Shown here: positions 1,352-18,400 of the stretch, piece after piece
Layout: each line of letters begins with the position of its first letter
Position numbering within the stretch: the first letter of the stretch is position 1
Source of the DNA: Streptomyces sp. I6
Lineage (GTDB): Bacteria; Actinomycetota; Actinomycetes; Streptomycetales; Streptomycetaceae
DNA: 64,000 bases
NCBI GenBank assembly: GCA_003725745.1
Contig: RHDP01000001.1
Coordinates: forward strand, 496,001 to 560,000
Reading direction: 5' to 3'
Position numbers and translations under genes: made by a program
The notes under the pieces: generated by a model
What the model was told of the DNA's origin: nothing
The model's input: the letters and a program-made list of their open reading frames with translations, nothing else
Database searches by the model: none

Positions 1352-2871
1352 CTACCGCGTGCTTCGGTCTCCTGCCGCATCCGACACCCGCGCCATCCAC
1401 TCCTCCACTTCACGCGAACCGCTCGGCATCGCGGCGGACAGGTTCTCGCAGCCGTCCTCGGTCACCAGCACGTCGTCCTCGATGCGCACCCCGATCCCGC
1501 GGAACTCCTCCGGTGCCAGCAGATCGTCCGCCTTGAAGTACAGGCCCGGCTCGACCGTGAGGACCATCCCCGGCTTCAACTCGCCGTCCATGTAGTCCTC
1601 GCGCAGCAGCAGCTGGCAGTCGTGCACGTCCATGCCCAGGTGGTGGGAGGTCCCGTGGACCATCCAGCGGCGGTGCCAGCCCCCGTGCTCCGGATCGAGG
1701 GTCTGCTCGAGCGTGACCCCGTCGGGCAGCAGCCCCCACTCGTGCAGGCGGCGTGCGATGACCTCGTTCGCGGCGGCGTGGACGTCGCTGAACCTGTTGC
1801 CGGGCCGCACCGCCGCCATGCCTGCCCGCTGCGCCTCGTGGACCGCGTCGTAGATCCTGCGCTGCACGTCGGTGAAGCGGCCGTTCACCGGGAGGGTGCG
1901 GGTGATGTCGGCGGTGAACAGGGAGTCGACCTCGATCCCCGCGTCGATCAGGATCAGGTCGCCGTCCCGGACCCCGCCGCTGTTCCTCGTCCAGTGGATG
2001 GTGTTGGCGTGGTCACCGGAAGCGCAGATCGACTCGTATCCGACGCCGTTGCCCCGGTGGCGGGCGTAGAGGCCGAACATCCCTCCACCCACCGCTCGCC
2101 GCGCCCCTTGCGCACGGCCTCCGGCAGGGTGGCGATGACCGCCTCGAAGCCCTCGTGGGTGGCGGCGATCGCCTTGCGCATCTCGCCGATCTCCCACTCG
2201 TCCTTGACGATCCGCATCCCGGACAGATGGCGGGCCAGTTCCTCGTCGGCGTCCTCCTGCTGCTCCACGGACAGGGACGTGCCCGACTGGGCGCGGGTGG
2301 TGTCCACCAGCCCGGCGAGCTGCGGATCGGCCGATCGGACCACGCGCAGCCGGGCGGCGGCGTCGTCCTTGGCCAGATCGTCGGCGAGCGAGTCGATATG
2401 GCGGGCGGTCAGGCCGAGTTGCGACTCGACGTCGGCGACGGCGGGCCGGGAGCCGACCCAGAACTCCCCGTACCGGGAGTCGGTGTAGAACTCCTCGGTG
2501 TCCCGCGGGGCCGGCGGCCGGAAGTACAGGACGGCGTGGTGGCCGCCCTCCGGACCGGGATGCAGCACCAGGACGCTGTCGGGCTCGGCGTGTGCGCCGA
2601 GCCCGGACAGGTGGGCGAAAGCGGTGTGCGGACGGAAGGTGTAGTCGGTGTCGTTGCTGCGCACCTTCAGGCCGCCACCGGGGATGACGAGCCGCTCGCC
2701 GGGGAACCGCAGGGACAGCGCCGCCCGTCTGCGGGCGGCGTGGTCGGCGACCTCGGCACGGGGTGTGGGCGAACGGTCGTCGGTAGCCCATCCGGAGGCC
2801 ATGAACTCGCGGAACTCGGTGCTGGTGGGAGTGCCGCGGTGGCCGGCCTTGGGTTGGTTCTCGCTCGTCAT
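1352..2871 (-). CDS. pepP: Aminopeptidase P (Xaa-Pro aminopeptidase, M24B), frameshifted
   Basis: A metallopeptidase that removes N-terminal residues preceding proline. The N-terminal creatinase-like domain is in one frame and the catalytic pita-bread domain in the next. The catalytic half carries all five metal ligands: Asp in 'LIDAGIEVDS', Asp in 'TADITRTLP', His in 'HLGMDVHD', Glu in 'LTVEPGLYF' and Glu in 'GVRIEDDVLV'. The frame breaks in a C run at 2081-2083: the upstream frame reads 'ERWVEGC', while restoring one base gives 'ERWVEGMFGLYARH', which matches the family. A single missing base is therefore likely, probably a sequencing error. Start chosen at ATG 2871 ('MTSENQ'); an in-frame ATG 20 codons upstream is less likely. 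TAG stop at 1352-1354. Confidence 0.85.
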
Positions 2872-2983
2872 GCCGGCCATCCTGTCAGACCGACCGACCA
2901 TTCGGGCCCCCTGTGGATAACTGACGATCATTCAGGGCGGTGGCGCCGGACGGACCGTCGCGAAGACCGGCCGCGCCGCCGCG

Positions 2984-3493
2984 TCACCCGCCTTCTGCGG
3001 GGTTCGCCTCCTCGCGGCAGCGGACCATGAAGGAACGCTCGAAGACGATGACGGTCTCCCCCGTCGCCTTCGTGCCCGTCGTCTCCACCGTGATGATGCC
3101 CTGCCCCGGCCGGGACCGGGACAGCCGCTTGCCGAGGATCCGGCTCGTCGCATAGAGGGTGTCGCCGACGAAGACGGGACTCTTCAGGCGAACCCTGTCC
3201 CAGCCCAGGTTGGCCACCGCCCGCGCCGACAGCGCCTGTACGGTCATCCCGCCGACCAGGCACAGCGTGATGCCGCTGTTCACCAGGACCTTGCCGTACT
3301 CGGCGCCGGTGCCGTAGTGCCGGTCGAAGTGGAGCGGATGCTGGTTCATCGTGAGCAGGGTCAGCCAGGTGTTGTCGGCCTCGGAGAGGGTGCGGCCCGG
3401 CCAGTGCCGGATCACCATGCCGGGCTCGAAGTCCTCGTAGTCCCCGCCGTGCTCCTCGGCGTACTCGTTGTCCTTGATATGACGCAGGGCCAT
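2984..3493 (-). CDS. MaoC family dehydratase (hotdog fold)
   Basis: A 169-residue single-hotdog enoyl-CoA hydratase/dehydratase-type protein. The hydratase-2 motif region is visible as 'LLTMNQHPLHFDRHYG', giving the N-x-H-P-x-H pattern expected of MaoC-like enzymes acting on mesaconyl- or fumaryl-CoA-type substrates. 'PVFVGDTLYATSRIL' is the usual second-half strand motif. It lies 119 bases downstream of the ATP-grasp gene on the same strand, at the end of the biosynthetic operon. I infer that it dehydrates a malyl-CoA-type product of the CitE-like aldolase encoded at 5977-6846, as proposed for the MaoC protein of ketomemicin clusters. It could equally be a primary-metabolism mesaconyl-CoA hydratase that happens to be adjacent. 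Confidence 0.8.
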   Translation of the reverse strand: MALRHIKDNEYAEEHGGDYEDFEPGMVIRHWPGRTLSEADNTWLTLLTMNQHPLHFDRHYGTGAEYGKVLVNSGITLCLVGGMTVQALSARAVANLGWDRVRLKSPVFVGDTLYATSRILGKRLSRSRPGQGIITVETTGTKATGETVIVFERSFMVRCREEANPAEGG

Positions 3494-3515
3494 GCGGTCC
3501 ACTTCCGGTGATGTC

Positions 3516-3566
3516 GCTGAACGGGGTCGGCGCGAACGGGATCGGCGCGAACGGGATCGGCGGGAG
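3516..3566. repeat. 15-bp direct repeat between MaoC and ATP-grasp genes
   Basis: The unit CGCGAACGGGATCGG occurs at 3531-3545 and again at 3546-3560, with a diverged partial copy before and after. It occupies much of the 119-base gap upstream of the MaoC start. No function is evident. Confidence 0.6.
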
Positions 3567-3612
3567 GCGCGGTCGCCGCGCCGGAACGCGGGCGGTGCGT
3601 GAGCGGCTGCCG

Positions 3613-4968
3613 TCAGATCACCACCATCACGTTGTCGGAGCTGCTGGTCCCGGCCCGGACGCTGACGATGCCGGCGGAGCCGTCGCCGTAGAACCGGCAG
3701 AACATCCCGGCCGGGCGACCGCCGAACAGCAGGGGACCCAGCACCGGGGCGACCTCGGCGTCGTGCGGCTCGTCGGAGCCGTCGGCGATCAGGGCGACCC
3801 GGCAGGTCTGCGGCTCCACGAAGTCCTGCACCACGCTGCCGACGCCGACGGCGTCGGCGACCGCGGACTCCCACCCGGCCTGGTCCACCTCACGGCCGAT
3901 CACCACCTGCTTCCCGCTCTCCCCGAGGCCGGCCTTGAGCACCAGCCGGTTCCGGTTCCCCAGCACGAACGGGAGCAGGTCCACCCGCCGGCCCTCGCGG
4001 TCGGTCTTCCGCTCCGAGAGGACCCGCGTCCACGGCAGGTACGTCTCGACCAGGTCGCGTTCGGCCCCGGTCATCCAGGGCCGCCCCTCCGACAGCAGGC
4101 CCATGGTGAGCTTGCTGTGCAGGAAGGTCGACGTCTGGGTGCCCACCAGCAGGCAGCCGTTGTCCAGCGCGTCCTGGACCGGCGCGGTGTCGAGGCCCGC
4201 CTCCAGCCAGTCCGGGATGGTGAAGTTCCGCAGTCCGAGCGGATGGCGCAGCCGCGGGGCGCAGTCCCACGCCTGGTGCAGCTCCTCCGGCTCGAAGAAG
4301 CGCGCGGTCAGGCCGTGGGCGTTGCAGTAGTCGGCCTCCCTCTCGAAGTACCGCCGCTCCACGCCCGTCACCCGGGCGCTGCCGACGACGGCCACCCGCG
4401 GTGCCAGCGCCAGCTCGGCGCTCAGCGAACGGAACATCTCGGCGCGCACGGCGAACGGGCTGGGCGAACGGAACGGGGTCCGGCCGTCCTCGTCGGCGTG
4501 GAGCCGGCGCCACACCGCAAGCCGGCTCTGCGTCTCCACCACCCCGCCGAGCGCCCCGCTGACGTTGAACTCCAGGAAGCGGGGCCCGTCCGGGCCGATG
4601 ACCAGATCCGGGCGGACCACGCAGTCGGCGTACCGCTCCTCGACGAACGGGTCGCGCATCCACAGCCGGTTCTCGGTGGCGGGCATGCCGTAGGCAGCCA
4701 GCCGCTCGGCGGTGGTGGCTCCGGTCTCCAGGGCGGTCCGGCGCAGCAGTTCGACCAGGGCGGCGCCCGCCCGGAAGATCTCGGCGTAGGACGCGCGCGG
4801 AATCGCCATCGGGGCCGCGGGGAGGAGCCGCTGGTACGGCCAGCCGGTGTCCCGGAGTTCGTGCCGCAGCAGCTGCCGGATCGTGTCCGCCGGGGCGGCG
4901 GGCCGCAGCCGGTGGCGGCCGAACCACGGGTGCCCGTTCGCCGTACCGAGATCCTCATACGTGTCCAT
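3613..4968 (-). CDS. ATP-grasp-like peptide/amide ligase 1 (glutathionylspermidine-synthase-like)
   Basis: A 451-residue protein I read as a circularly permuted ATP-grasp ligase, the type that joins a carboxylate to an amine through an acyl-phosphate. The evidence is a central 'FLEFNVSGALGGVVETQ' motif, recalling the E-x-N signature of glutathionylspermidine synthase-like enzymes, and a C-terminal 'LVLKAGLGESGKQVVIG' segment that looks like the lysine plus glycine-rich nucleotide loop. The protein encoded at 13046-14434 shares the same two motifs, so the cluster encodes two related ligases. Start at ATG 4968 is preceded by GGGAGGGAG; it overlaps the 3' end of the cyclodeaminase gene by 14 bases, implying co-translation. 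Substrates are unknown. Family assignment is from motifs only. Confidence 0.65.
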   Translation of the reverse strand: MDTYEDLGTANGHPWFGRHRLRPAAPADTIRQLLRHELRDTGWPYQRLLPAAPMAIPRASYAEIFRAGAALVELLRRTALETGATTAERLAAYGMPATENRLWMRDPFVEERYADCVVRPDLVIGPDGPRFLEFNVSGALGGVVETQSRLAVWRRLHADEDGRTPFRSPSPFAVRAEMFRSLSAELALAPRVAVVGSARVTGVERRYFEREADYCNAHGLTARFFEPEELHQAWDCAPRLRHPLGLRNFTIPDWLEAGLDTAPVQDALDNGCLLVGTQTSTFLHSKLTMGLLSEGRPWMTGAERDLVETYLPWTRVLSERKTDREGRRVDLLPFVLGNRNRLVLKAGLGESGKQVVIGREVDQAGWESAVADAVGVGSVVQDFVEPQTCRVALIADGSDEPHDAEVAPVLGPLLFGGRPAGMFCRFYGDGSAGIVSVRAGTSSSDNVMVVI

Positions 4969-5980
4969 CCGGCACTCCCTCCCCTGGTGGCGGAACGGCG
5001 GGCGGTCCTCCCGTTCCCCGTCCGGCGGCACGGCGCGGCTCGAACAGCGCCAGCGCGGCCGCGGTGTCCTCCACGGCCATGCCGACCGTGCGCAGGACCG
5101 AGGTCCGGCCGCCGGGGTCGGCCCCGCCGCTCACCAGCCGGCCCAGCTCGTGCAGGTCCTCGGCCCGGATCAGCCCGCCGGCCACGGCGGCCCGGACCTC
5201 GCCCGCGCCGTCCAGCGCCGCGGTCCGGTCCTCGACGACCGTCATGGCACCGGCCAGCAGGGCCGGGTCGAGTTCGACGGCGTCCGGGTGGGTTCCGCCG
5301 ATCACGTTCACATGCGCGCCGGGGGCCACCCAGTCCGCCTCCACCACGGGCGTCCCGTCGGACGTCGAGGTGGCGGTGCAGACGATCGGCGCGTCGGCGA
5401 CGGCGTCCCGCGCGTTGTCGCAGACCACGGCGCGGATCGGGCGGGGTGCGCCGTCCTGGACCCAGTCGGCGAGCCGGTCGGCCCCGGCACGGGTGCGCGA
5501 GTGGATCCGGACGGTGCGGATCGGGCGTACCGCGGCCGTCGCCCGGATCAGGGCACGCGCCTGCACCCCCGCGCCGATCACCGCCATGGTGTCGGTGTCG
5601 TCGGGAGTGCACCGGCGGGTCGCCAGGGCGGTGACCGCTCCGGTGCGGACGGCGGTGAGCTCGGCGCCGTCCAGCAGGGCGATGATCTGGCCCGTCTCCA
5701 GGTCGGTGAGCGCGACGATGCCGTGGATCAGCGGCAGTCCGCGTGCCGGGTTGTCCGGGGTGAGCGTGGTGACCTTGACGCTGCCCACGCCGCGCCGTTC
5801 CCAGACGGCGGGGCTGACCAGCAGGACGCGCCGGTCGCCGTGGTCGACGACGGTGCGGGCCGGGGACCGGGTCCGGCCGGCGGCCAGGTCGGCGAACATC
5901 TCGCCGAGCACGTCGATGACCCGGGTCATCCGCCGGGTGCCGGACATGTCGGCGGCGTGGATCATCACCGGTGCGGTCAT
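4955..5980 (-). CDS. Ornithine cyclodeaminase / mu-crystallin family oxidoreductase
   Basis: A 341-residue NAD(P)-dependent enzyme. The Rossmann loop is clear in 'MAVIGAGVQARALI'; before it come 'GSVKVTTLTPDNPARGLPLI' and 'LTAVRTGAVTALATR', the substrate-side motifs typical of this family. Members catalyse ornithine to proline cyclisation, reduce cyclic ketimines, or act in making unusual amino acids (for example SbnB, alanine dehydrogenase). The start codon overlaps the stop of the CitE-like gene as ATGA (5977-5980), so it is translationally coupled within the biosynthetic operon. I infer a role as an imine/enamine or C=C/C=N reductase, or as supplier of a non-proteinogenic amino acid; the sequence does not decide between these. 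Confidence 0.82.
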   Translation of the reverse strand: MTAPVMIHAADMSGTRRMTRVIDVLGEMFADLAAGRTRSPARTVVDHGDRRVLLVSPAVWERRGVGSVKVTTLTPDNPARGLPLIHGIVALTDLETGQIIALLDGAELTAVRTGAVTALATRRCTPDDTDTMAVIGAGVQARALIRATAAVRPIRTVRIHSRTRAGADRLADWVQDGAPRPIRAVVCDNARDAVADAPIVCTATSTSDGTPVVEADWVAPGAHVNVIGGTHPDAVELDPALLAGAMTVVEDRTAALDGAGEVRAAVAGGLIRAEDLHELGRLVSGGADPGGRTSVLRTVGMAVEDTAAALALFEPRRAAGRGTGGPPAVPPPGEGVPDGHV

Positions 5981-6846
5981 GCGGTTCCGCCGTCGCCGCC
6001 GAACCGGTCCGTCCAGGCCTCCCCGCGGGCCGCCGTGGTGCGCGCCAGCCGGGCGAACGGCGGGCCGACCATGTTGCCGTCCAGGACGGCTATCCCGCCG
6101 TCGGCCGCCGTCACGGCCTCCGCCACCCGGCGCGCCCGTGCCAGTTCGTCGGGCCGGGGCCGCAGGATGCGGTTGATCACGTCGAGTTCGCCCGGGTGCA
6201 CCGTCGCCTTGCCGTGGAAGCCGAGTGCCCGCACCCGGGTCGTCTCCTCGGCGAGGGCGGCCGGCTCGGCGAGCCGGAAATTGGCGGTGTCGACGCACGC
6301 CGTGCCGTGCCGGGCGCAGGCCATCGCCATCGCCTGCCGGGCGGCCAGCATGGCCTCCCAGGTGATCTCGACGCCGATCGTGGCGGCCAGGTCGGCCGAG
6401 CCGAGCACCAGGCCGTCGGCGGCACGCGCGATGGCGTCGATGCCGGTGACCGCCTCGACCGTCTCCACCGTCACATAGATCTCCGGGTGCGCGTCCGCCG
6501 ACGCCAGGATCCGGCGCAGCAGGTCGACCTCGGCGGCCGAGTTCACCATCGTCATCACGACGATGCCTGGCGGCACCGGGCTGTCGGTCAGCATCAGCAC
6601 GTCGTGCACGGCCGCGAGGCTGCCGAGTTCGTTGACGCGTACGGCGACGTTCGCCGGGCGCGCCGACTTCTCCAGTGCGGCCCGGCAGACCGCGCGGGCG
6701 GCCGGCTTGTCCGCGGGCGGTACGGAGTCCTCGAGGTCGACGAGGTGGACGTCCGCGTCGTACGACCAGGCCTTCACCACGCGTTCCAGGGACAGCGCGG
6801 GCGTGTACAGGATGCTGCGCGGGATCGCCCGCACCGCGCCGGTCAC
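5977..6846 (-). CDS. CitE-like CoA-ester lyase/aldolase (HpcH/HpaI superfamily)
   Basis: A 289-residue TIM-barrel enzyme of the citrate lyase beta / malyl-CoA lyase family, which makes or breaks the bond between an acyl-CoA alpha-carbon and a 2-oxo acid. Visible hallmarks are 'RSILYTP' at the N-terminus, 'VDLEDSV' (Mg-binding acidic pair, residues 37-42), 'VTVETVEAV', 'LGSADLAATIG' and 'HGKATVHPGE'. It starts with GTG at 6846, overlapping the stop of the PLP enzyme. By analogy to KtmA of the ketomemicin pathway, which is known to condense a 2-oxo acid with malonyl-CoA, I infer that it works in the synthetic direction here; the 2-oxo acid could be the product of the aldolase at 9007-10020. Confidence 0.85.
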   Translation of the reverse strand: MTGAVRAIPRSILYTPALSLERVVKAWSYDADVHLVDLEDSVPPADKPAARAVCRAALEKSARPANVAVRVNELGSLAAVHDVLMLTDSPVPPGIVVMTMVNSAAEVDLLRRILASADAHPEIYVTVETVEAVTGIDAIARAADGLVLGSADLAATIGVEITWEAMLAARQAMAMACARHGTACVDTANFRLAEPAALAEETTRVRALGFHGKATVHPGELDVINRILRPRPDELARARRVAEAVTAADGGIAVLDGNMVGPPFARLARTTAARGEAWTDRFGGDGGTA

Positions 6847-8096
6847 CGGGACACCGGCTCGGGCAGCGGGGCCGCGGGGAGCGCCCCGGCCTCGACCAGG
6901 GCCGAGCAGAGCCGCGTGATCTGCTCCTCGGTCTGGCCGGCCCGCAGCATGACCCGCAGACCGGCGGTGCCGCGGGCGACGATCGGGAAGAACACCGGCG
7001 AGGTGTAGAACCCGGCCGCGAAGACCTGCTTGGCGGCGTCGACGACCGTCTCGTCGCTCATCGGCACCACCCGGATCGGGTAGCTGCTGCCGGACTGGGC
7101 GGTCGCCACCAGCGAGTCGAACAGCGCGATGCGGGACCGCAGGCGCCCCTGCAGCCGAGTGAGTTCGTCGGTGCGGTGGATCTCGGCCGAGGCGAGCGCC
7201 GCGCCGACCGCGGCGGCGTTCATCTTCTGCGAGTAGCCCAGCGGGCCGGCGAACCGTTCGATGAGCCGCCGGGTGTCCTGGGCGTACCCGTCGAGCAGGA
7301 TCGCCGTGCCGCCGGCGCCGAAGCCCTTGCTCAGGGTCGCCACGGTGATGGTGCGCTCGTCGAGCACCGGAGAGTGCAAGCGGACGTAGCCGATGCCGCG
7401 CTCACCGTACGCGGACAGCGAGTGCGAGTCGTCGTAGAAGACCAGCAGGTTGTACTTCTCCTGGAGTTCGGCGAGCTCGTCGACGGGCGCGTAGCCGCCG
7501 AGGCTGTCCGAGCCGTCCACCACGTAGCAGACCCGCTCGTAGCTGCGGCACATGTCCTTGAGGAAGTCGAGGTCGTGGTGGCGGCAGGTCACCACCTCGG
7601 TCTCGTCGGCGCAGCTCGGTTTGGCGTTGGCCATCGAGACATGGGCGTTCTTGTCGAAGACCATCAGCGGCCGGGTGCCGTTGCCGAGGTGGCCCGAAGC
7701 GACCAGCGGCAGCAGCCCGGTGCTGGCCGCCGCGGTGGAGATGGCGCTGATCACCATGGCGCCGAACAGCTCGCCCAGCGACTCCTCCAGCTCCAGCAGC
7801 ACCGGCGTCTGGACGCGGGTGCGCGGGATGCAGTGGTCCAGCACGCCGAAGCGGCGCAGCGAGGCGACCGCGCCGTCGATGACCCTGGGGTGGGTGTCGA
7901 GGTCCAGGTAGGAGCAGACCGTGAAGTTGACGAACTCGTGCCCGTCGGGCATGTGGAACACGCCGTCCTCGAGGTCGCCGACGATGCCGGCGACCCCGTG
8001 CTCGTAGGACATGTTCCAGAAGGTGTTGCCGATCCCGATGAGCCTGTCGTTGTCGCGGTACCGGTGGGTGGGGGTGATGGTCTTGCGCTCGCTCAT
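6843..8096 (-). CDS. Alpha-oxoamine synthase-type PLP enzyme (class II aminotransferase fold)
   Basis: A 417-residue fold-type I PLP enzyme of the family of 8-amino-7-oxononanoate synthase, glycine C-acetyltransferase and serine palmitoyltransferase, which condense an amino acid with an acyl-CoA and lose CO2. The Schiff-base lysine is K257 in 'TLSKGFGAGGTA'; the pyridine-nitrogen aspartate and stacking region are 'YDDSHSLSAYG' (D222/D223, H225); H152 in 'DKNAHVSM' fits the ring-stacking histidine; 'CSYLDLDTHP' matches the conserved N-terminal motif. It overlaps its neighbours by 4 bases on both sides. It differs clearly from the genuine bioF at 53273-54427. I infer it builds a ketone (carbonylmethylene) link between an acyl-CoA and an amino acid, as KtmB does. 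Confidence 0.82.
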   Translation of the reverse strand: MSERKTITPTHRYRDNDRLIGIGNTFWNMSYEHGVAGIVGDLEDGVFHMPDGHEFVNFTVCSYLDLDTHPRVIDGAVASLRRFGVLDHCIPRTRVQTPVLLELEESLGELFGAMVISAISTAAASTGLLPLVASGHLGNGTRPLMVFDKNAHVSMANAKPSCADETEVVTCRHHDLDFLKDMCRSYERVCYVVDGSDSLGGYAPVDELAELQEKYNLLVFYDDSHSLSAYGERGIGYVRLHSPVLDERTITVATLSKGFGAGGTAILLDGYAQDTRRLIERFAGPLGYSQKMNAAAVGAALASAEIHRTDELTRLQGRLRSRIALFDSLVATAQSGSSYPIRVVPMSDETVVDAAKQVFAAGFYTSPVFFPIVARGTAGLRVMLRAGQTEEQITRLCSALVEAGALPAAPLPEPVSR

Positions 8097-8962
8097 CTGG
8101 AGTTCACCTCGGTGGGCTGGTAGCTGTAGACGCCCTTGAACCTCCGGTAGGCGTACGTGTACAGCGCGACGCCGAGCACGTGCGGCCGGTGGAGGATCTT
8201 CTTGGACTTGAGCCAGAAGTTGACGTTGATGTTGATGTCGTCCAGCGACTCGGCCTGGTGCCACCAGCCGAGCGGCAGGTAGAGCATGTGGCCCGGCTCC
8301 AGGACGAAGTCGCGGCGCTGGGCGAGCTTGGCGGCCAGCCTCGGGTAGCGCTCCAGGTCGACGTCGTCGAGGTCGACCACCCGGGACTTGTCGCCGAACC
8401 CGCGCAGTACCGACCTCGGGTAGTAGGCCCGCACACCGGGGGGAGCGACGATGAACCGCTTGCGGCCCTCGAGCGCGATGTTGAAGTTCTCGAACTCGTC
8501 GAAGTGGTTCTTGGTGAACACCCCGCGGTGGCTGATCCACAGGTTCGCCGCGTAGAGGGAGTCGCCGTAGCCGAAGAGCTCGCCCGCGTCGAAGCCGATG
8601 ACGGCGTTCACGTCGGCCGGGCTGCTGCGGATGTTGGACACCACCCGGTGCCAGGTGTCCGGGCTGTTCAGGTGCCGCTCGTCGGCGAAGAACTCGCGGA
8701 GCTTGATGTCCCGTGTCTCCCAGCGGCCCGGGTGGTTCTTGTCGCCGGGCTCGGTGAACAGGGTGACGGTCATCTCGGCCAGGCGCGCCGCCACTTCGTC
8801 CCTGCCGAGTCCCTGCACACTGCTCGGCAGTTTGATCACCACGGGCCGGTCGGCCTTGAACAGCCCCCGGGGGCCGACGGCCGTGAACGCGTCGAACGAC
8901 ATGCGGGTGACCTCCACACCCGCCGTCCCCCTCGACCCGGGCACAGCGTCCGGTACTGCCAT
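8093..8962 (-). CDS. JmjC/cupin-like Fe(II)/2-oxoglutarate oxygenase
   Basis: A 289-residue cupin-like protein. The facial triad is visible: H153-x-D155 in 'FTKNHFDEFENFNIAL' and the distal H235 in 'LPLGWWHQAES'. K168 in 'EGRKRFIVAPP' sits where JmjC enzymes bind the 2-oxoglutarate carboxylate. The layout, with 'YYPRS' and 'EPGHMLYLPLGWWH', is typical of the FIH/TYW5-like hydroxylases. ATG at 8962 has GGGGAGGA upstream, and the stop overlaps the PLP enzyme start (ATGA). In this operon it most likely hydroxylates or otherwise oxidises the nascent metabolite; the target cannot be read from sequence. Confidence 0.8.
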   Translation of the reverse strand: MAVPDAVPGSRGTAGVEVTRMSFDAFTAVGPRGLFKADRPVVIKLPSSVQGLGRDEVAARLAEMTVTLFTEPGDKNHPGRWETRDIKLREFFADERHLNSPDTWHRVVSNIRSSPADVNAVIGFDAGELFGYGDSLYAANLWISHRGVFTKNHFDEFENFNIALEGRKRFIVAPPGVRAYYPRSVLRGFGDKSRVVDLDDVDLERYPRLAAKLAQRRDFVLEPGHMLYLPLGWWHQAESLDDININVNFWLKSKKILHRPHVLGVALYTYAYRRFKGVYSYQPTEVNSR

Positions 8963-9006
8963 GTCGTCTGTCCTCCCCTTTGTCGAAAAGCCGGTTGACT
9001 CGCCCG

Positions 9007-10020
9007 TCAGCCGCCGGTCCCGCGGCCGCTCAGCTCCGCCACCACGTCCACGATCAGGTCCTCCTGACCGGCGACGGCCTGCCGCCGGCCGAGTTCGAAG
9101 AAGACGTCACGCGGGTCCACCCCGGCGGCCGCGGAGAGTTCGACGACCCGGTGCTTGAATCCGGAGAACACCCCGGCCAGGCCGCTGACGATGCTCATCG
9201 ACGCGGTCACCGGAGGTGCGGGCATGAGTTCCCGCTCGGCGAGGTCGGCGGCGTCCAGCAGCGCGTACAGATCGATGCCGGTGGCGAACCCGCTCCGCTC
9301 CAGCACCGGGACCAGCACCTCGAGCTGGGTGTTGCCCGCCCCGGCGCCGAAGCCGCGGGCGCAGCCGTCGATGATCAGGGCGCCGGCCTCGGCCGCGGCC
9401 ACCGAGTTGGCGACGGCCATGCCGAGGTTGTTGTGCCCGTGGAAGATGACCGGGGTGGTGCCGACCGCCTCGGCGATCGCGCCGATCCGCGCGGTGACGT
9501 CCGGAGGCAGGAAGTGGCCGGCGGAGTCCATGATCCCCACGGCCTGGGCCCCGTACCCGACGGCCCGCGCGGCCTGCTCGGCCAGCTCGCCGGGGGAGGC
9601 CATATGACTCATCATCAGTACGCAGTGGGCCTCCGCGCCGGCGTCCCGCAGAAAGCCCAGATGGCGCTCGGCCAGCGAGGTCTCCGTGGCGTGCACGCCG
9701 ACGCGGAAGACGTCGACCCCGTGGGCGATCGCCCGCCGCAGGTCGTCGGAGGTACCCCAGCCCGGCAGCATGAAGGTACCCATCCGGCTGTGGCGCAGCG
9801 CCTCCCGGACGGTCGACAGCATCTCGTCGTCCCCCGCCGCGGCCTGCCCGACCTGAAGCGACGAGGCGCCCAGTCCGTTGCCGTGGCCGACCTCCACCAC
9901 CGGGATCCGCGCCGCGTCCGCCGCCTCCGCGTAGCGGCGCAGCGCGGCCGGCCCGAGCTGGTGGCGGACCGCGTGCTGGCCGTCCCGCAGCGTGGGGTCG
10001 TGGATCACCACCCGTGTCAT
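9007..10020 (-). CDS. 4-hydroxy-2-oxovalerate aldolase (DmpG/BphI/MhpE-like)
   Basis: A 337-residue HMG-CoA-lyase-like TIM barrel, normal length for the family. Signatures are '[10 protein letters not shown]' (metal and base residues near the N-terminus), '[13 protein letters not shown]', the metal-binding 'FHGHNNLG', and the C-terminal '[12 protein letters not shown]' that lines the channel to the partner dehydrogenase. The enzyme cleaves 4-hydroxy-2-oxopentanoate to pyruvate and acetaldehyde, or runs in reverse. It is coupled by ATGA to the dehydrogenase upstream, as in meta-cleavage operons, but none of the other meta-cleavage genes is here. That and the biosynthetic neighbours suggest it runs in the synthetic direction. 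44 bases separate it from the oxygenase gene. Confidence 0.88.
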
Positions 10021-10946
10021 GAGGCCACCCCTGTCCGGGACATGCGCTCCGGCCGGGCCGCGTACTGCTCGGCGACCAGGACGGCGGCGGAGTTGATGAT
10101 GTCGAGGTTGCCGGCGTACGGCGGCAGGACGTCGCTGTGCGCCATGACCTGGAGGGTGATCGTCACCCGGTCGCCGACCGCGGTGCAGGCGGTGACCTCG
10201 TAGCCGGGGGCGAAGGACCGCACCTCCTCGGCCGCCCGGTCGGCCACCGCGCGCACCGCCGCGGGGTCGGCGCCGGCCATGCGGGCGTGGACGGCCGTAC
10301 GGAAGGTCGCCGGCGGTACCGCCGGGCTGATGTTGAGGATCGCCTTGACGTCGGCCACGCCGGAGAACGCCGTCACGGCGTGACCGGTGGTCGCCACGTA
10401 CTCGTCGAGGTTCAGCCTGGTCGCACGGCCCGCTACATCGCTGGCGACGGTCGAGACGACCTCGAGGTACGTCACCGGGAAGCGGGCCGCGAGCGCGTGC
10501 ACGACCGGGATGGACGCCTGTCCGCCGCAGCTGATCAGGTTGACGTTGCGTCCGGTCGCTGCCGACACCCCGGTCACCGTGGGCGCGACCATCCGGCCGA
10601 TCTTGCTGGGCGTCAGGTCGATCACCAGCGTTCCGAGCGGCTCCAGCAGCGGCCAGTGGTCCCGGTGGGCTGCGGCGCTGGTGGCGTCGAAGACGACGTC
10701 GAACGGGCGGGCCGCAGCGAGTACGGCCTCGATGCCGGCGGCCGAGGTGGCATAGCCGAGGCTCTCCGCGTACCGCAGGCCCGCCGACTCGGGATTGCGT
10801 CCGGCGACCAGCCGGCAGTCCAGGGCGGGCGACCGGTCGATCTTGCTGACCAGATCACGGCCGATGGCTCCGGTGCCGATGACGGCGACCGTCACCGGTT
10901 CGACGACATCCGGTTGGGCTGTCGTCAGGCCCGCCGTGAGGCTCAC
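10017..10946 (-). CDS. Acetaldehyde dehydrogenase, acylating (DmpF/BphJ/MhpF-like)
   Basis: A 309-residue NAD-dependent CoA-acylating aldehyde dehydrogenase, first gene of the operon. Residues 15-35 contain the Rossmann loop '[17 protein letters not shown]'. The catalytic cysteine lies in '[16 protein letters not shown]'. The C-terminal '[14 protein letters not shown]' is the typical family end. It interconverts acetyl-CoA and acetaldehyde and forms a substrate-channelling complex with the aldolase whose gene overlaps it by 4 bases. I chose the GTG at 10946 because GGAGG lies 7 bases upstream and the reading frame further upstream is low-complexity. In this cluster the pair would convert acetyl-CoA plus pyruvate to 4-hydroxy-2-oxopentanoate. 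Confidence 0.87.
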
Positions 10947-11635
10947 CGTATGCCTCCGTGTGGCATGCGGTGGCAGGTCGGCGGACGACCCGAGAGGCAA
11001 CGGCGGGTGCCGGTCGCACGTCTCGCCGCATCCGGTTCGCTGGTTCCCCTGAACACCATGGACGTTGTCCTCACCTTCGATGTGCACGCGGCTCGCGGTG
11101 GCAGCCCTGGCGGCGGGCACCCGGGAGCCTCCCCCGGCCGTCCGTTCCGCACCGTGTGACGACGCGTGGTTCGCGACCGGAGGACGAGGAAGCCAGGACC
11201 GCTCGGCCGCGGACCGTCAGCATCGGCCCCGGGCACGAGTCAGGGGTCCTGGCGCAGTGTGTGCATGGCCCCGTTGACGGCATGCCCTCCCATGCATGCC
11301 CGTTGCCGGCATGCCCTCCCACGCATGCCCGTTGCCGGCCACCGGCTCAGCGCCCGGCGGCGGCGAACATACCAGAAGAACGCAGGACACAACCCCCTTC
11401 AGGAGCACGGGATTTGATCATCCTCGGAGGTGCCCGGCGGGTTCACCCGGCCTCCCGGGCGGCGGGTCCGCCCCTCTCCCGCCGGCTGGGCGCGACGTCT
11501 CCCGCGGACGGCGGACAGCGGATCTGATCTTGCCCTCGACGCCGCCGCGGACGCCGACTATTCTCGGCAGCTCCGTGCGCCGACCGCAGGGGGCTCGGCG
11601 AGCGACGACGGGGCGGCATATCCGAGGGGGAGACG
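10947..11635. other. Divergent promoter region of the biosynthetic cluster
   Basis: About 690 bases separate the minus-strand enzyme operon from the plus-strand exporter unit. I see no protein-coding gene in it. It holds a 29-bp tandem repeat (described separately), several GCATGC palindromes and a locally AT-richer patch near 11408-11424 (GGATTTGATCATCC). Both operons must start here, so this is the likely control region of the cluster. No regulator gene is present nearby. Confidence 0.55.
11281..11338. repeat. 29-bp tandem direct repeat in divergent promoter region
   Basis: Two adjacent copies, 11281-11309 and 11310-11338, differ at one base (CATGCATGCC versus CACGCATGCC in the middle). 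Each unit contains CATGCCCTCCC and ends in CCCGTTGCCGG; a shortened relative (CATGGCCCCGTTGACGG) precedes them at 11264-11280. The spacing and the palindromic GCATGC inside the unit make a tandem operator plausible, but that is inference. Confidence 0.85.
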
Positions 11636-11671
11636 ATGGACTGCCGGCTGCGCTGCCACACGGTGTCATGA
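11636..11671 (+). CDS. Short leader ORF (11 aa) coupled to the exporter gene
   Basis: ATG at 11636 is preceded by a strong ribosome binding site, GAGGGGGAG at 11624-11632, and opens an 11-codon frame reading MDCRLRCHTVS. Its TGA (11669-11671) overlaps the ATG of the MFS gene (11668-11670) as ATGA. The MFS start itself has no good ribosome binding site, so translation of the exporter probably depends on ribosomes finishing this leader. Whether the two Cys and two Arg codons have a sensing role is unknown. It is too short to support by homology. Confidence 0.5.
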   Translation: MDCRLRCHTVS

Positions 11672-12969
11672 GCGCGTCGACGACCGACTCCACCGGCTCG
11701 CAGCGCCCGCGGCTGGGACGGGACTTCCCCTGGCTGTGGTGCTCCGCCGCCGTGTCCTCACTCGGCGACGGGGCCACCATCGCCGCCGCCCCCCTGCTGG
11801 CGAGCCGGCTGACCGACGACCCCCGGCTGATCGGTGCGGCCTCGGTCGCCTTCACCGCGCCGTTCATCCTGTTCGGCATCCCGGCAGGGCTGCTCGTCGA
11901 CCGCCTCGACATCCGGGCGATGATGGTGCGCGTCGACCTCGCCCGGGCCGCCCTGCTCGCGGTGCTCACCGCCGGGATCCTCGGCGGCTGGGGCGGGTTG
12001 CCGCTGCTCTACGTGTGCATGTTCCTGCTCGGCACCGGCGAGGTCCTCTGCCGCAACGCCGCCCAGGTACTCGTCCCCTTCATCACCCCGAAGGACGGGC
12101 TCGCCACCGCCAACGCCCGCATCATGGCCGCACAGGAGGCCGGCGCCGGCTTCGTCGGCCCGCTGATCGGCGCGCTGCTGTTCGGTGTGGCGATGGCCCT
12201 GCCGTTCGGCGTGGACGCGGCCACCTTCCTGTGCTCCGCGGTACTGCTCAGCCGCATCCGCCGCACCCGGCCGGTCGAGTCGGGCACGGACCGGACCGGC
12301 GTGCTGTCGCAGATGCTGGCGGGCGCCAGATGGCTGTACGGGCACCACCTGCTGCGCAGCCTCGCCCTGGTGTCCTGTCTGATCAACCTCGCCGGGAGCG
12401 CGATGCTCGCCGTGCTCGTGGTGCACAGCGGGAGGGTGCTCCACCTGGGCCCCTTCGGGTACGGCGTCCTGCTCGCCTGCCAGGCCGTGGGAGCCGTTCT
12501 CGCCTCACGGTTCGCCCCCGCGCTGACGCAACGCCTCGGCAGGGAGGGCGCGCTGGTCGCCACCGCCGCCCTGATCGCCACGAGCGAGACGGTGCTGGCA
12601 GCAGCGTCGTCGGCGTACGCGGCCGGCGCGGCCCTCGCGATCTTCGCGTGCGGGACGGTGACATGGAACGTCGTCGTGGTCGTCCTGCGGCAGACCCTGG
12701 TGCCGCAGCACCTGCTCGGCCGGGCCAACAGCGTGTACCGGCTGGTCGCCTGGGGCGGACTGCCCGTCGGTGCGGCGGCCGGCGGCATCCTGGCCGCCGA
12801 GGTCGGCACCCGCGCCGTGTTCGGCGCCGGCGCGGTGGTCATGGCGGTCGTCGCGGCGGCGCTCCTCGCGGGCGCCCGCCGCCGGTGGATCACCCGCGCC
12901 GAACAGAACACCGAACGGAACACCGAACAGAGCGCCGAGCAGACTCCGCGGCCGACGGGCGAGGTCTGA
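11668..12969 (+). CDS. MFS transporter, putative exporter of the cluster product
   Basis: A 433-residue membrane protein with about twelve hydrophobic segments, of the MFS_3/enterobactin-exporter-like subgroup common in Streptomyces resistance and secretion. The loop between helices 2 and 3 shows the family-type 'AGLLVDRLDIRAMM' (G-x-x-x-D-R motif). The C-terminal tail is hydrophilic, with an Asn/Glu/Thr-rich stretch ('NTERNTEQSAEQT'). Start at ATG 11668, overlapping the leader ORF. It is followed after 76 bases by the second ATP-grasp gene on the same strand, so the two are probably one transcript. I infer export of the metabolite or self-resistance; no substrate can be read. Confidence 0.8.
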   Translation: MSASTTDSTGSQRPRLGRDFPWLWCSAAVSSLGDGATIAAAPLLASRLTDDPRLIGAASVAFTAPFILFGIPAGLLVDRLDIRAMMVRVDLARAALLAVLTAGILGGWGGLPLLYVCMFLLGTGEVLCRNAAQVLVPFITPKDGLATANARIMAAQEAGAGFVGPLIGALLFGVAMALPFGVDAATFLCSAVLLSRIRRTRPVESGTDRTGVLSQMLAGARWLYGHHLLRSLALVSCLINLAGSAMLAVLVVHSGRVLHLGPFGYGVLLACQAVGAVLASRFAPALTQRLGREGALVATAALIATSETVLAAASSAYAAGAALAIFACGTVTWNVVVVVLRQTLVPQHLLGRANSVYRLVAWGGLPVGAAAGGILAAEVGTRAVFGAGAVVMAVVAAALLAGARRRWITRAEQNTERNTEQSAEQTPRPTGEV

Positions 12970-13045
12970 GCCCGGCACCCGCCCGGCCCACGGCGCCGCC
13001 GCAGCGCCCCACCCCGCACACGGTCCGCTCCGGAAAGGACATGCA

Positions 13046-14434
13046 GTGACGACCAGCAGCCTGCCCCAGCCACCCAGGTCGCGGCTGGGCCACGCCTACC
13101 GGGAGCAGCTCGCGCGGCATGCGCCCCCCGGCCGTCCCACGGCCGCCGCCCGGGAGTCGGCCGCACTCACGCTGGCGTACCGGGACCGGTTCCTGAGCGG
13201 CCCCGCCTTCCTCGGCGAGACGGAGCGCCGCACCGTCGTGGACGACCTCCACACGGCCTACGGGCTGCTGCGCTCGCTGCCGGAGCGGGTGTTCGGGGGA
13301 AGCGTCACCGCACTGGCCGCGGCGGTAGGGCTGGATCCCCGGCAGTCGGCGCTGATCACCCGCAGCGCCCGGACCGGGGCGCTCCTCCCCCTGGGGCGGG
13401 CCGACCTCTACCACGACGGCACGGGCTTCAGACTCCTCGAGTTCAACATCACCAGCGCACTCGGCGGCTTCGAGAACGCGGACATCAACCGGGCGATGCT
13501 GGCGTACCCGCCACTGGAGGAGTTCGTACGGCAGCACGGCCTCCGCTACCGGGACACCCTGGGCTGCATGGTGCGGACCATGTACGCCGAGTGCGCCCCG
13601 GTCCTCCCCACCGATCGGGCGCCCGTCGTCGCCGTGGTCGACACTGCGGAGAACTTCGCCGTCGTGGGGCCCAGGCTGAGGGTGTTCGCGGCGAAGCTGG
13701 CCGACCACGGCGTCGAGGGGATCGCCTGCGACCTCGGCGAACTCCGCTACCCCGGCGGCCGTCCCACCGTCTTGGGCCGCGCCGTCGACGTCGTCTTCCG
13801 GTACTTCCTCGCCGAGGACCTCACCGACCCCGCCACGGCGGCCCTGCTGGAGCCGCTGCTGGTCGCCGTCGAGCAGGGAAGAGTGGGCCTGTTCAGCCGG
13901 CTGGACGCCGAACTGTACGGAAACAAGGGCACCTTGGCGATGCTCTCCGACGAACTGCACCGCGACCTGTTCGACGCCGCCGAACTGGCCTGCATCGACC
14001 GGCTTCTGCCCTGGACGCGGTACGTGCGCCCACGCACCACGGACCCCGGCGGCGCCCGGGTCGGCATGCTCTCCTACGCCCTGGCCCACCGGCAGGAGCT
14101 GATCCTGAAGCCGACCCTGCTGCACGGCGGCAACGGGATCACCGCCGGCTGGGAGGCGGACGCGGCGGAGTGGGAGAACAAGGTCGCCTCGGCCATGGAC
14201 GGCCCCTATGTGCTCCAGCACCGGGTACGCCCCGCCGCCGAGCCGTTTCCCGCCGACGCCGGCGGCGTGCGGGAACTCTTCCTCAACTGGGGCATCTACG
14301 TGAGCGGACGCGGGGCCGGCGACGACGGTTACGCCGGAGGCTTCGTACGGGGAAGCACCGATCCGGCCGCAGGGGTCGTCAGCATGGGCAGCGGTGCCGA
14401 GGTCGGTTGCGTCTTCCACGGCGGCGACCGCTGA
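13046..14434 (+). CDS. ATP-grasp-like peptide/amide ligase 2
   Basis: A 462-residue homologue of the protein encoded at 3613-4968. Shared features are the central 'RLLEFNITSALGGFENADI' block and, near the C-terminus, 'LILKPTLLHGGNGITAGW', which resembles an ATP-grasp lysine and glycine-rich loop; 'ELYGNKGTLAMLSDE' and 'DRLLPWTRYVRP' have counterparts ('STFLHSKLTMGLLSE' and 'ETYLPWTRVLSE') in the paralogue. It starts with GTG at 13046, with GGAAAGGAC upstream. Lying in the exporter unit on the opposite strand from the first ligase, it may catalyse the second amide bond of the product or a tailoring ligation. Ligase function is inferred from these motifs only. Confidence 0.62.
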   Translation: MTTSSLPQPPRSRLGHAYREQLARHAPPGRPTAAARESAALTLAYRDRFLSGPAFLGETERRTVVDDLHTAYGLLRSLPERVFGGSVTALAAAVGLDPRQSALITRSARTGALLPLGRADLYHDGTGFRLLEFNITSALGGFENADINRAMLAYPPLEEFVRQHGLRYRDTLGCMVRTMYAECAPVLPTDRAPVVAVVDTAENFAVVGPRLRVFAAKLADHGVEGIACDLGELRYPGGRPTVLGRAVDVVFRYFLAEDLTDPATAALLEPLLVAVEQGRVGLFSRLDAELYGNKGTLAMLSDELHRDLFDAAELACIDRLLPWTRYVRPRTTDPGGARVGMLSYALAHRQELILKPTLLHGGNGITAGWEADAAEWENKVASAMDGPYVLQHRVRPAAEPFPADAGGVRELFLNWGIYVSGRGAGDDGYAGGFVRGSTDPAAGVVSMGSGAEVGCVFHGGDR

Positions 14435-15444: not shown

Positions 15445-18400
15445 TCAGCGGCTCTCCGCCAGCCGCGACACGTAGTCCTGCCGCAGCGCGTCGAGGATCT
15501 GCCCGGCCTCCGCGAGGCCGGCCTTCTGGCAGCGCGCCACCGCCGTCGTCAGCCGGGCGATGGCTTCCTCGAACCGGCGCAGCGCGCCACCCTCGATCAG
15601 CGCGGCGATCCGGACCGCCTCGGCACGCGCCGACTCGCCCTCCTCGCCCCCCTGTTCGTGGGCGGCGACGGCCGCCTCCAGCTCGGCCAGGGCCTCCTCG
15701 AAACGCTCCGCCTCCGCCAGGACGCGGCCCCGGCGGTAGTGCACGGTGCCTCGCTCGAACCAGGGCGCGAAGCCCTCCGTGCCCTCCGGCACGGATGCCG
15801 CCAGCGCGTCCGCGTCGGCGAGATGCCTCAGCGCCGTCTCCAGGCCCTCCATGCCCTGCGCGTTCATGACCAGACGCGCGAACTCGCACATCATGTGCCT
15901 GAGCAGGGACGGGTTCGGCGCCTGCGCGTGCACCGCCAAGGCCCGCTCGTAGGCCGTGCCCGCCGCGTCCCAGCGGTCCGCCAGAGCCAGCGCGATGGCC
16001 GTGTCGGCGGTCACCATGGTCTGGATGGGGGCGTCGTCCTCCCAGCCGGAGACGGCGTCCGCCAGCCGCAGGAACTCCTCGGCCGACGGCAGGAACTCCT
16101 CGAGTTCCCGCAATCCGCGCGCCAGCATGAGCCGGGCCTGGGCGACCATCCGCTCGTCGAGCGCGGCCGCCGCCTCCTCGGCGACCAGCGACTCCAGGAC
16201 CGCGACCGCGTCGGCATGCTGACCCGTCCGCATCAGGACGTCGACCAGTTGCAGCCGCACGTCCGCCGCCTCCTCGGACGCTCCGGACTGGTCGAACCGT
16301 GCGGCCGCCTCCGACAGGTGGCGCACGGCCGCCGCGTGGTCGCCCAGGTGCGAGACCGCGTGGCCGAGCATCGCGTACGTCGGCGCCATGGGGAAGTCCG
16401 CGTCGTCGTACCGCACCGCGTCCGCGATCGCCTCGTGCAGCAGCTCCACCGCCTCCCGCGGTCGCTCCCGTGCCATCAGGATCTGGGCGAGCAGGGCGCG
16501 CGGGCGCGGACAGCGCCACGGCCGGCCGGCGGCCTCCAGGTCCTTCAGCGCGGCGCGCAGAGACTCCTCGGCGCGCACGAGGTCGCCGTGGCGGCCGGCC
16601 AGGTCCGCGACGAACTGCCGTGCGTTGGCGAGCTGGTGAGGGACGGACAGCCGCTCAGCCTCGGTGTGCAGGGCCCGGACGCACCGCTCGAAGCGCTCGA
16701 GGGCGCCTGGGGAGGCCTCCGGACCACCCCGGCCCAGCTCCTGGTAGGCCGCGTAGGTGCGCGCGTAGCACACCGTGAGGTACGCCAGCTTGCGCTCCTG
16801 CTCCAGGTCGTCGCAGGCCGCCGCCTCCGCCGCCCCGAGGGCCTCGCCGGTGAACGGAACCTCGGTGCACAGTTGTTCGGCCTCGCGGAGGAGTTCGTCA
16901 AGGGCGTCCCGGATCCCGTCGGAGTCCAGCCGCTCGGCTCCCCCGGCCTGCTCGGCGTCCCCGGCTTGCTCGGCTCCCCCGCCCTGCTCGGCTCCCCCGT
17001 CGGCCGGCGGGTTCATCCATGCGAGGGCACGGGCCCGCGTGGACAGCGCCTGCCACGGCATGCCGAGCCGCTCGTAAAGCTCCGCGGCCCGGCGCGCCTC
17101 CACGGTGGCCTCTTCGTGGCGTTCCGCCATCGTCAGCTCGCCCGCCCGCTGCTCGGCGAGTTCCGCCCGCAGCAGCTCCCGCGGGCCGAGCACGTCGTCG
17201 TGCACCGCGCTGCCGTCGGCCAGACGCTCCGCGATCCGGGTCCACAGCCGGGCGTCCCCGGGGTGACCCGCGCTCGCCATCCGCCGTGCCTCGCGTACCA
17301 GGGTCACGAAGTCCTCGGGGATCGCGACGGCGGGAGCCGCGGTGGCGGGAGCCGTCACCGGCGCAGCCGTGGCCGGGCGTGCGACGGACGTCCTCAGGCC
17401 CAGCGGCAGCGGCGCGTCGAGGAGCGGACGCTGCGACAGACGCTCCCGGCGACGGTCCCCTACCGCTGTCGTGCCGTTGCGGGCGTCGAACGCGGCCGTC
17501 AGCCGGTCCGCCTCGGCGCGGACGTGCGCGAGCAGTTCGTCCGCCGTCCAGCTCCGTCCCGGCGGACCCGCGACGACCGTGTCGGCGTGCCCGTCCTCGA
17601 CGATCCGGGCGAGCAGCAGCTCGACGCCGGTCAGGAAGTCCAGATGGGCCAGCGGAGCGCCGGTCGCCTCGAACAGCGGCCGGTTCTCGGCCAGGATCTC
17701 CAGGCCGCGCCCCTCGTTGCGGGACAGCACGCAGAACTCCAGGTGCCGGCCGACCCAGGCCTGCATGCCGGTGTTGCCGCGGACCCGGCGGTAGCCGGTG
17801 AGGTGGTGCGAGCGGGCCTCGTCGAGCCGGCCGGAGCGCAGTAGCGCTCCGAGCGCCAGCGCCTGGCTCACCTGCGGCTCCTCGGTGCAGCCGATCGCCT
17901 CGTCGAGGACCGGCCGCAGCGTGTCGAGCGCCCCGGCGTCGTCGCCCGCGTTCATCCGGTACGCGGCCAGGTGCCGGGTCTCGCACGCCTCGCAGTCGCT
18001 CAGCTCGGTGCGCGGCCGGGTGATCCACAGGTCGTACGCGTCCGCAACCCCCGCGCCCGTGTGGGCCGCGACGTGGTAGCGCATCGCCGCCACGGGCTGC
18101 ATGCCGTGCCCGGCCCTCTCGTACCGGCGCAGTGTCTCGTCGATCCAGCCGCGGATCGAGGTCAGCGGTACCTCGGGCACGTCGAGCAGCGAGGCCGCCA
18201 CCCACTTGAAGCGCCAGTAGACCTGGTGGGCCTCCCACTCGCTGAACTCCTCGGGAGACTCGTCCCACAGCCTCAGCAGCCGGCCGAAGACGACCGGTGA
18301 CTTGCGGTACTCGCCGGTGAACTCGTACGCCGTCATGAGCTCCAGCAGAGCGGTGACCAGGACGTCCGGCTTCTCGAACTGACCGGCCGCTTCGGCGAGT

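Follow-up and report, generated by a model that had tools for sequence, protein, structure and literature searches.

Near the start of the 64,000-nucleotide stretch of Streptomyces sp. I6 DNA analysed here (the window; contig RHDP01000001.1, positions 496,001 to 560,000 of the forward strand) lies a cluster of biosynthetic genes that, on balance, we believe to make a small, oxidised, ketone-bearing pseudopeptide. Eight minus-strand genes between 2984 and 10946 form one operon. The first in the direction of transcription encodes a DmpF-like acylating aldehyde dehydrogenase (10017..10946; 296 bits to TIGR03215, above the cut-off of 282). It is followed by a DmpG-like 4-hydroxy-2-oxo-acid aldolase (9007..10020; 351 bits to TIGR03217, above the cut-off of 286), a JmjC/Cupin_8 protein that is presumably an Fe/2-oxoglutarate oxygenase (8093..8902; Pfam PF13621, nearest solved relative FIH), and a pyridoxal phosphate (PLP)-dependent alpha-oxoamine synthase of subfamily PRK07505 (6843..8096; 546 bits against a cut-off of 342). 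Next come a CitE/HpcH-type aldolase, expected to form or cleave a C–C bond of an acyl-CoA (5977..6846; PF03328), and a reductase of the ornithine cyclodeaminase (OCD)/mu-crystallin family, presumably acting on an imine (4955..5980; PF02423, 197.5 bits). The operon closes with a probable ATP-grasp ligase of glutathione-synthetase fold, here called ligase 1 (3613..4968; assigned from an AlphaFold2 model searched with Foldseek and from conserved residues), and a MaoC-type enoyl-CoA hydratase/dehydratase (2984..3493; PF01575), which is RipB/Ich-like with a score below the RipB_Ich cut-off.

Two plus-strand genes at 11668-14434 face the operon across an intergenic region (10947..11667) that, from the gene positions, probably holds the promoters of both transcription units. 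They encode a major facilitator superfamily (MFS) exporter (11668..12969; PF07690, PF05977) and an ATP-grasp-like protein, ligase 2 (13046..14434), which is 28% identical to ligase 1 and has the same six conserved residues. Directly downstream of the MaoC gene, also on the minus strand, is a gene for an M24 aminopeptidase P, split over two reading frames: the N-terminal part (1954..2901) is 92% identical to residues 1-274 of the copy at a related locus, L111, and the C-terminal part (1352..2140), in the other frame, is 92% identical to residues 272-460 of that copy. No nonribosomal peptide synthetase (NRPS) or polyketide synthase (PKS) gene was seen in the cluster.

The joints within the operon comprise four overlaps of 4 bases and one of 14; the genes for ligase 1, OCD, CitE, the PLP enzyme and the JmjC protein are coupled by overlaps of 14, 4, 4 and 4 bases, and those for MaoC and DmpG are separated from operon neighbours by gaps of 119 and 104 bases. 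The first-pass annotation of this DNA had described such an operon, coupled by stop–start overlaps, and had correctly placed in it the MaoC, ATP-grasp-like, OCD, CitE, PLP and JmjC families, facing an exporter and a second ATP-grasp-like protein. All the genes that it named are present; its list left out DmpG, DmpF and the downstream aminopeptidase P, which prove to be the best candidate source of what it called a different starter (DmpF and DmpG) and the best clue to the target (aminopeptidase P).

The gene set recurs in other genomes. A search for ligase 1 in 394 genomes of the host's family gave, besides the host itself, six matches at 82-98% identity and one at 68%. All eight operon genes are present in each of the six close relatives, one of which (L037) has no M24 gene nearby and another (L039) no MFS match. 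A wider scan took one genome from each species and searched it with an alignment of seven oxoamine-synthase sequences; it yielded 90 pattern matches, 58 of them encoding a relative. These loci were found through the PLP enzyme, and the counts that follow state how often other genes accompany it. Genes were called over loci of up to about 21 kb, and the count for the ligase family merges both ligases. The caller missed the MaoC gene of L098 and a contig-edge M24 fragment of L075, both visible to tblastn, and also the OCD gene of the window itself. The 58 loci are not fully independent, with L082 and L108, and L058 and L097, sharing a genome or contig; nor are they fully independent of the six close relatives, two of which appear to come from the genomes that also hold L064 and L066.

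As the first-pass annotation required, the set is kept as a unit: genes for the PLP enzyme, CitE, MaoC and OCD occur together in 54 of the 58 loci, and all eight operon families in 37, with either ligase counting. The exceptions to the four-gene core are L058, without CitE, OCD or MaoC; L074 and L084, without MaoC (L084 stops at a contig edge); and L098, with the MaoC gene that only tblastn detected. The loci fall into a window-like clade I (19 loci), a clade II (31), a single locus of Trinickia fusca, and a distant group (7). DmpF and DmpG were called in 12/19, 29/31, 1/1 and 0/7 loci of these groups, respectively, and the JmjC protein in 19/19, 31/31, 0/1 and 0/7; OCD is present in all four. 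Hosts include Streptomyces, Kitasatospora, Salinispora, Micromonospora, Actinokineospora, Nocardia and Trinickia. The PLP family itself is rare: in a phylum-wide sample of 396 genomes, only 3 gave hits at E ≤ 1e-60, the window's own genome included. Since the combination recurs in 58 loci while its PLP enzyme is so uncommon, the cluster is confirmed as a real conserved unit and not a chance assembly. Of the two genomes with such hits besides the window's own, one (L217) has a cluster of the distant type; in the other (L216, genome G563) the PLP, CitE and MaoC proteins are nearest the ketomemicin (ktm) type discussed below (51, 44 and 58% identity), and the locus may represent a further ktm-like type.

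The closest relationship to a characterised pathway is with the ketomemicin genes. A second homologue of the PLP enzyme, at 45-46% identity, is found in three of five Salinispora genomes. At one of these loci, L155, it is accompanied by MaoC and CitE, a dehydrogenase of the zinc-binding type, a ligase with PreAtp-grasp and PGM1_C domains, and a protein of 384 residues that has no Pfam hit and that we take to be an amidinotransferase (KtmE); L156 and L157 carry the same six genes. L155 is called ktm-type by its gene content, which fits the six-gene list in the passages seen of PMC11943689, and not by comparison with published ktm sequences. The window's enzymes are 45% (PLP enzyme), 36% (CitE) and 52% (MaoC) identical to those of L155, and the ktm-type PLP enzyme scores 540 bits to PRK07505, close to the 546 of the window's. 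Neither the window nor any of the 58 loci gave a tblastn match at E 0.001 to the dehydrogenase, the ligase or the presumed amidinotransferase from L155. Because these three genes are unmatched and the window's reductase belongs to the OCD family and not to the zinc-binding dehydrogenases, the gene content describes a cluster of ketomemicin-like chemistry that is not a ktm cluster. The claim that it follows the logic of the ketomemicin pathway is thereby upheld for CitE, MaoC and the PLP enzyme and falls short for the remaining ktm genes. The naming of KtmF as the counterpart of MaoC was mistaken: in PMC11943689 the name KtmC belongs to the dehydratase, and KtmF to the dehydrogenase.

In a tree of the PLP enzymes, the cluster, ktm-type and distant-group proteins lie together, apart from seven homologues of 24-28% identity that are presumably BioF/KBL-like (SH-aLRT 100). 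The grouping of the PLP enzyme with a primary-metabolism KBL, which the first-pass annotation had named as a contrary outcome, was not seen, nor was that of CitE and MaoC with ethylmalonyl-CoA-pathway enzymes, among a set of CitE and MaoC paralogues in which none was identified as such an enzyme. The window itself contains a distant second oxoamine-synthase homologue (28%; L004) at about 53285-54313 on the minus strand, some 45 kb from the cluster. K257, which we take to be the PLP lysine, and D222, H225 and H152, presumably its neighbouring family residues, occur in 59 of 59 aligned enzymes, and six residues checked in CitE are conserved in 58 of 58. More generally, the residues that we assume to be catalytic in CitE, the PLP enzyme, DmpG, DmpF, the JmjC protein and MaoC are invariant or nearly so. 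The best matches of the PLP enzyme in the PDB are 8xha, 8xhd, 8xhk and 8i7u, at about 318 bits; 8xha is Alb29, which, according to the passages seen of PMC11906848, forms aminoketones from L-glutamate and acyl-CoAs.

The substrates of OCD-family enzymes are imines with an adjacent carboxylate, and the solved structure nearest the window's protein is that of a delta1-pyrroline-2-carboxylate reductase (6t3e). R42 and K69, which we take for the imino-acid site, are present in 58 of 58 sequences; R112 is present in 51, the other seven having lysine, among them L103 and L108 of the distant group. The JmjC protein, in addition to its Pfam assignment, has a profile match to FIH, an asparagine hydroxylase, and the HxD...H triad is intact in 51 of 51 sequences; its predicted structure (mean pLDDT 38.4) was not used, so that the family assignment rests on Pfam and the profile match. 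C140 of DmpF is conserved in 43 of 43 sequences.

The ligases gave no Pfam or NCBIfam hit at E 0.001, and their profile gave no match to PDB sequences at E 0.01. The AlphaFold2 model of ligase 1 (mean pLDDT 85.7, pTM 0.89) retrieves glutathione synthetases as its top Foldseek matches (human enzyme, E 7e-16, TM 0.60), with Cp1B seventh. R119, D121, E133, N135, K286 and K345 are present in all 62 aligned sequences of the two ligases. The first four resemble R139, D141, E163 and N165 of Cp1B, as matched by pattern and not by superposition; the passages seen of PMC12568646 report that alanine changes at these positions hurt the ligase. The model thus supports a glutathione-synthetase-fold ATP-grasp enzyme for ligase 1, and ligase 2 is probably ATP-grasp-like, as its identity to ligase 1 and the shared residues suggest.

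The same M24 gene is a single open frame in the close relative L035 (genome G274). Because a second M24 gene of the window's genome (C1:3300382-3301613) is also in two frames, and the assembly is 87.4% complete, an assembly error (indels) likely lies behind the split. Pfam recognises M24 and AMP_N in the Salinispora homologue, and the five metal-ligand positions, assigned after E. coli PepP, are intact in the aligned cluster copies of relatives, the window copy itself being in two frames. M24 was called in 33 of the 58 loci (clade I, 14/19; clade II, 14/31; Trinickia, 0/1; distant group, 5/7), and no match was found in the three ktm-type loci L155-L157, each of 12 to 19 kb. Of 20 genomes searched, 19 gave M24 matches at E ≤ 1e-20, between one and four per genome with fragments counted (G411 has none), and all 19 have, by coordinates, at least one copy away from the cluster. 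By a hand estimate, a few copies per genome would place one within 21 kb of a given point in 8 Mb by chance about 1% of the time.

A tree of 53 M24 sequences (37 from clusters, 16 from elsewhere) requires five changes of cluster linkage; five are forced by well-supported branches, and bootstraps give five to six. The changes may be gains or losses. The tree omits the window's own split gene and L205, of which 14 residues were recovered. L200 and L213 were dropped as duplicates of the cluster genes of L109 and L078, L217 was added, and L198 and L210, once seen to lie beside distant-type clusters, were either replaced or given the label cluster instead of elsewhere; before this relabelling and dropping of rows the count was seven. 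Clade-I copies form one long-stemmed branch (100/100), and thirteen copies from clade II group (100/99) with those that stand at the far end of two distant-type clusters. Other cluster copies lie in two further lineages, and L093 is among the housekeeping copies. The five linkage changes suggest that M24 genes were repeatedly recruited to the cluster. The simplest reading of their role is that the cluster copy confers resistance as a copy of the target, with trimming of the product as the alternative. Outside the cluster, the genome of L112 (S. griseus NCTC13033, contig C54) has OCD-family and M24 matches about 1 kb apart (L218). Ectoine-utilisation genes combine these two families, and the pair may be of that kind.

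Several loci have genes of their own around the common core. In Amycolatopsis xylanica (L074:13114-14309), the operon's OCD gene is directly followed by two ClpP genes recognised by Pfam, with no sign nearby of M24, MaoC or a ligase. Three more ClpP-like matches occur in the genome, and the pair is possibly another protease-type resistance. In Trinickia fusca (L158:10722-12875 / L100:7810-9963), a carbamoyltransferase (Pfam) lies between DmpF and the PLP enzyme, which hints at a hydroxyl group open to carbamoylation; after OCD come a short-chain dehydrogenase/reductase and a protein that matches ATP-grasp weakly. L103-L109, L217, L219 and L220 represent a second cluster type, of which we found no description. 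It comprises a LeuA-type synthase, MaoC, an Fe/2-oxoglutarate-oxygenase-like gene, CitE, a 300-residue protein without a Pfam match, an esterase, the PLP enzyme, OCD and an amidase, with a ligase and one or two M24 genes besides in most loci. Neighbouring genes in L108 resemble, by eye, LeuB, LeuC and LeuD.

A pathway can be proposed from these families, in which each substrate is our suggestion. DmpF would reduce an acyl-CoA to an aldehyde, to which DmpG would add pyruvate, giving a 4-hydroxy-2-oxo acid. CitE could then couple this acid with acetyl- or malonyl-CoA to form a 2-hydroxy-2-substituted succinyl-CoA, which MaoC would dehydrate. That CitE uses a 2-oxo acid supplied by a neighbour is hinted at most strongly by the distant clusters, in which a LeuA-type synthase (644.7 bits to PRK03739 in L103; the family was called in seven of seven) takes the place that DmpG has in the window. 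The alpha-oxoamine synthase would join the acyl-CoA to an amino acid with loss of CO2, and the resulting alpha-amino ketone would contain a carbonylmethylene group in place of an amide. Reduction of a C=N bond beside a carboxylate by the OCD enzyme and hydroxylation by the JmjC enzyme may follow, and then attachment of amino acids by the two ligases and export by the MFS protein; we infer the order of these last two stages. The product would then be a carbonylmethylene pseudopeptide, perhaps an inhibitor of aminopeptidase P, and the cluster copy of that enzyme would make the producer resistant by serving as a further, insensitive version of the target, or would trim the product.

The reductase lends itself to a different view of the product. 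It is conceivable, though doubtful, that the amino ketone closes on a carbonyl or double bond, that the OCD enzyme reduces the cyclic imine to a proline- or pipecolate-like amino acid, and that the ligases build from it a di- or tripeptide on which the Xaa-Pro-specific M24 enzyme acts, or of which that enzyme is the target. The resemblance to pyrroline-carboxylate reductase agrees with such a ring, as do the occurrence of OCD in all four groups and its absence from the ktm-type loci, and M24 was called in 33 of the 58 OCD-type loci and matched in none of the three ktm-type ones; ring closure, however, is not fixed by the gene set, and the OCD residue D233 is not conserved. The role of M24 can also be recast within the pseudopeptide reading itself. 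The enzyme might act in processing or salvage, as a peptidase that releases the active part from a peptide-bound precursor, and its metal-ligand positions are intact in the aligned cluster copies, but we lean against this idea: the gene looks dispensable, and at least five linkage changes suggest repeated recruitment, a pattern that we would expect if it conferred resistance and not if it served a step of the pathway.

Two further explanations seem to us very improbable. The family names of CitE, MaoC, DmpG and DmpF would suit a catabolic operon in which the first two degrade itaconate or citramalate, in the manner of RipC and RipB, and the other two a meta-cleavage product, with the rest as accessories. 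The scores fall far under the NCBIfam cut-offs (MaoC to RipB_Ich, 194 bits against 340; CitE to RipC_Ccl, 185 against 375), and among the family hits listed for the ten proteins scanned there is no CoA-transferase, meta-cleavage dioxygenase or hydratase of that pathway. On account of these scores, the accompanying ligases and oxoamine synthase, and trees that place CitE, MaoC and the PLP enzyme with ktm-type proteins, we have rejected catabolism. Nor do we give much credence to the idea that the cluster is simply a form of ktm whose product is a ketomemicin analogue. Three ktm genes have homologues here, but the other three have no match in the window or at any of the 58 loci, and Salinispora pacifica, S. 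fenicalii and S. cortesiana each carry both a window-type and a ktm-type cluster.

Some observations also count against the ketone-bearing pseudopeptide. The OCD step is its weakest point, since the intermediate on which the enzyme would act cannot be placed with certainty, and the three ktm-type loci L155-L157 have no counterpart of this reductase. Position D233, which we take for the catalytic aspartate, is aspartate in only 36 of 58 sequences; together with lysine for R112 in seven, this variability argues against the standard OCD mechanism in all members. DmpF and DmpG were uncalled in 16 of 58 loci, so they are either inessential to the family or replaced by paralogues elsewhere in the genome; such paralogues, of 38-43% identity, occur in seven of eight genomes searched. 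Loci of Nocardia, Rhodococcus and Amycolatopsis gave no ligase match, and the word peptide may therefore not fit every member. M24 was uncalled in 25 of 58 loci, including those of Actinokineospora and the S. griseus group, some of them at contig edges. Finally, the support separating CitE from nine paralogues (SH-aLRT 93) and MaoC from five (83) falls below the tool's mark of 95; these, like the PLP tree, are quick trees with very long paralogue branches, and the two separations are suggestive only.

A bolder proposal, which we regard as possible but not probable, is that the OCD clusters form a widespread, undescribed family that makes protease inhibitors without an NRPS. Their products would mimic Xaa-Pro, with a proline-like ring closed by OCD and a ketone in place of the scissile amide, and would inhibit aminopeptidase P, a duplicate of which would have been recruited repeatedly as self-resistance. 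A ring-closed, proline-like product would unite the OCD enzyme and the Xaa-Pro peptidase. If the pseudopeptide reading is true, the clusters represent a second, chemically richer branch of the natural ketomethylene pseudopeptides, with a built-in lead to the target. If, moreover, the maker of the 2-oxo acid differs by branch, DmpG in some and a LeuA-type synthase in others, nature would have a modular route to vary the residue after the ketone.

Regulation of the cluster was considered at two places. A pair of 16-base arms, 88% complementary, lies just before both divergent starts (10950-10965 and 11654-11669). The core of the element, GCCACACGG, was found in only 2 of 21 relatives, once in each and inside genes, and near-matches within the window show no excess over chance. 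As an operator of the divergent region the pair was set aside for want of conservation in relatives and because its near-matches are at chance level. An Lrp/AsnC gene at 769-1251 was likewise set aside as the cluster's regulator; among the relatives' loci it matched only L035 (94%) and L072 (32%). On the other side of the cluster, a large tetratricopeptide-repeat protein (15445-18489) adjoins an HSP90/histidine-kinase-type ATPase protein (18489-20351), both on the minus strand; neither is counted in the cluster.

Our search of the open-access literature, judged by titles, abstract openings and passages, and with subscription papers outside its scope, turned up no description of this cluster. 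According to PMC11943689, the only natural ketomethylene pseudopeptides known are the arphamenines and the ketomemicins. The paper also mentions, in strains that carry ktmA-F homologues, two ktm-like types that are uncharacterised; the window cluster does not have that full set. In the passages on albogrisin in PMC9672321 and PMC8399204 there is nothing on its genes. The likeness to the albogrisin system lies in the PLP enzyme, for which Alb29 (8xha; PMC11906848) is among the nearest solved structures.

Comparison with other known systems places the window cluster nearest to ktm and apart from it. Both have neighbouring genes for a CitE-type aldolase, a MaoC dehydratase and a PLP oxoamine synthase, both have an ATP-grasp ligase, and neither relies on a visible NRPS or PKS gene. 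The window cluster differs in having an OCD reductase for the zinc-binding dehydrogenase, in leaving the presumed amidinotransferase unmatched, and in a ligase without a match to the PGM1-type one. Beyond the ktm set it has the JmjC protein, the DmpF/DmpG pair, a second ligase, the MFS exporter and the M24 peptidase. RipABC itaconate degradation shares the MaoC (RipB) and CitE (RipC) relatives, but the scores are below the family cut-offs and the hits of the scanned genes include no CoA-transferase. The fungal E-64 pathway, in the passages seen of PMC12568646, offers a parallel of another kind: a protease inhibitor whose assembly uses no NRPS but an Fe/2-oxoglutarate oxygenase together with Cp1B, an ATP-grasp ligase of similar fold and with a similar R-D/E-N pattern. 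Its warhead is an epoxysuccinate, and those passages mention no CitE, PLP or OCD enzyme. The dynaplanin pathway, as seen in part in PMC9239090, requires only dynZ (the PLP enzyme) and dynY (an N-acetyltransferase), unlike the window cluster, but it too is a small cluster built round a PLP C-acyltransferase and overlooked by the usual cluster-finding algorithms.

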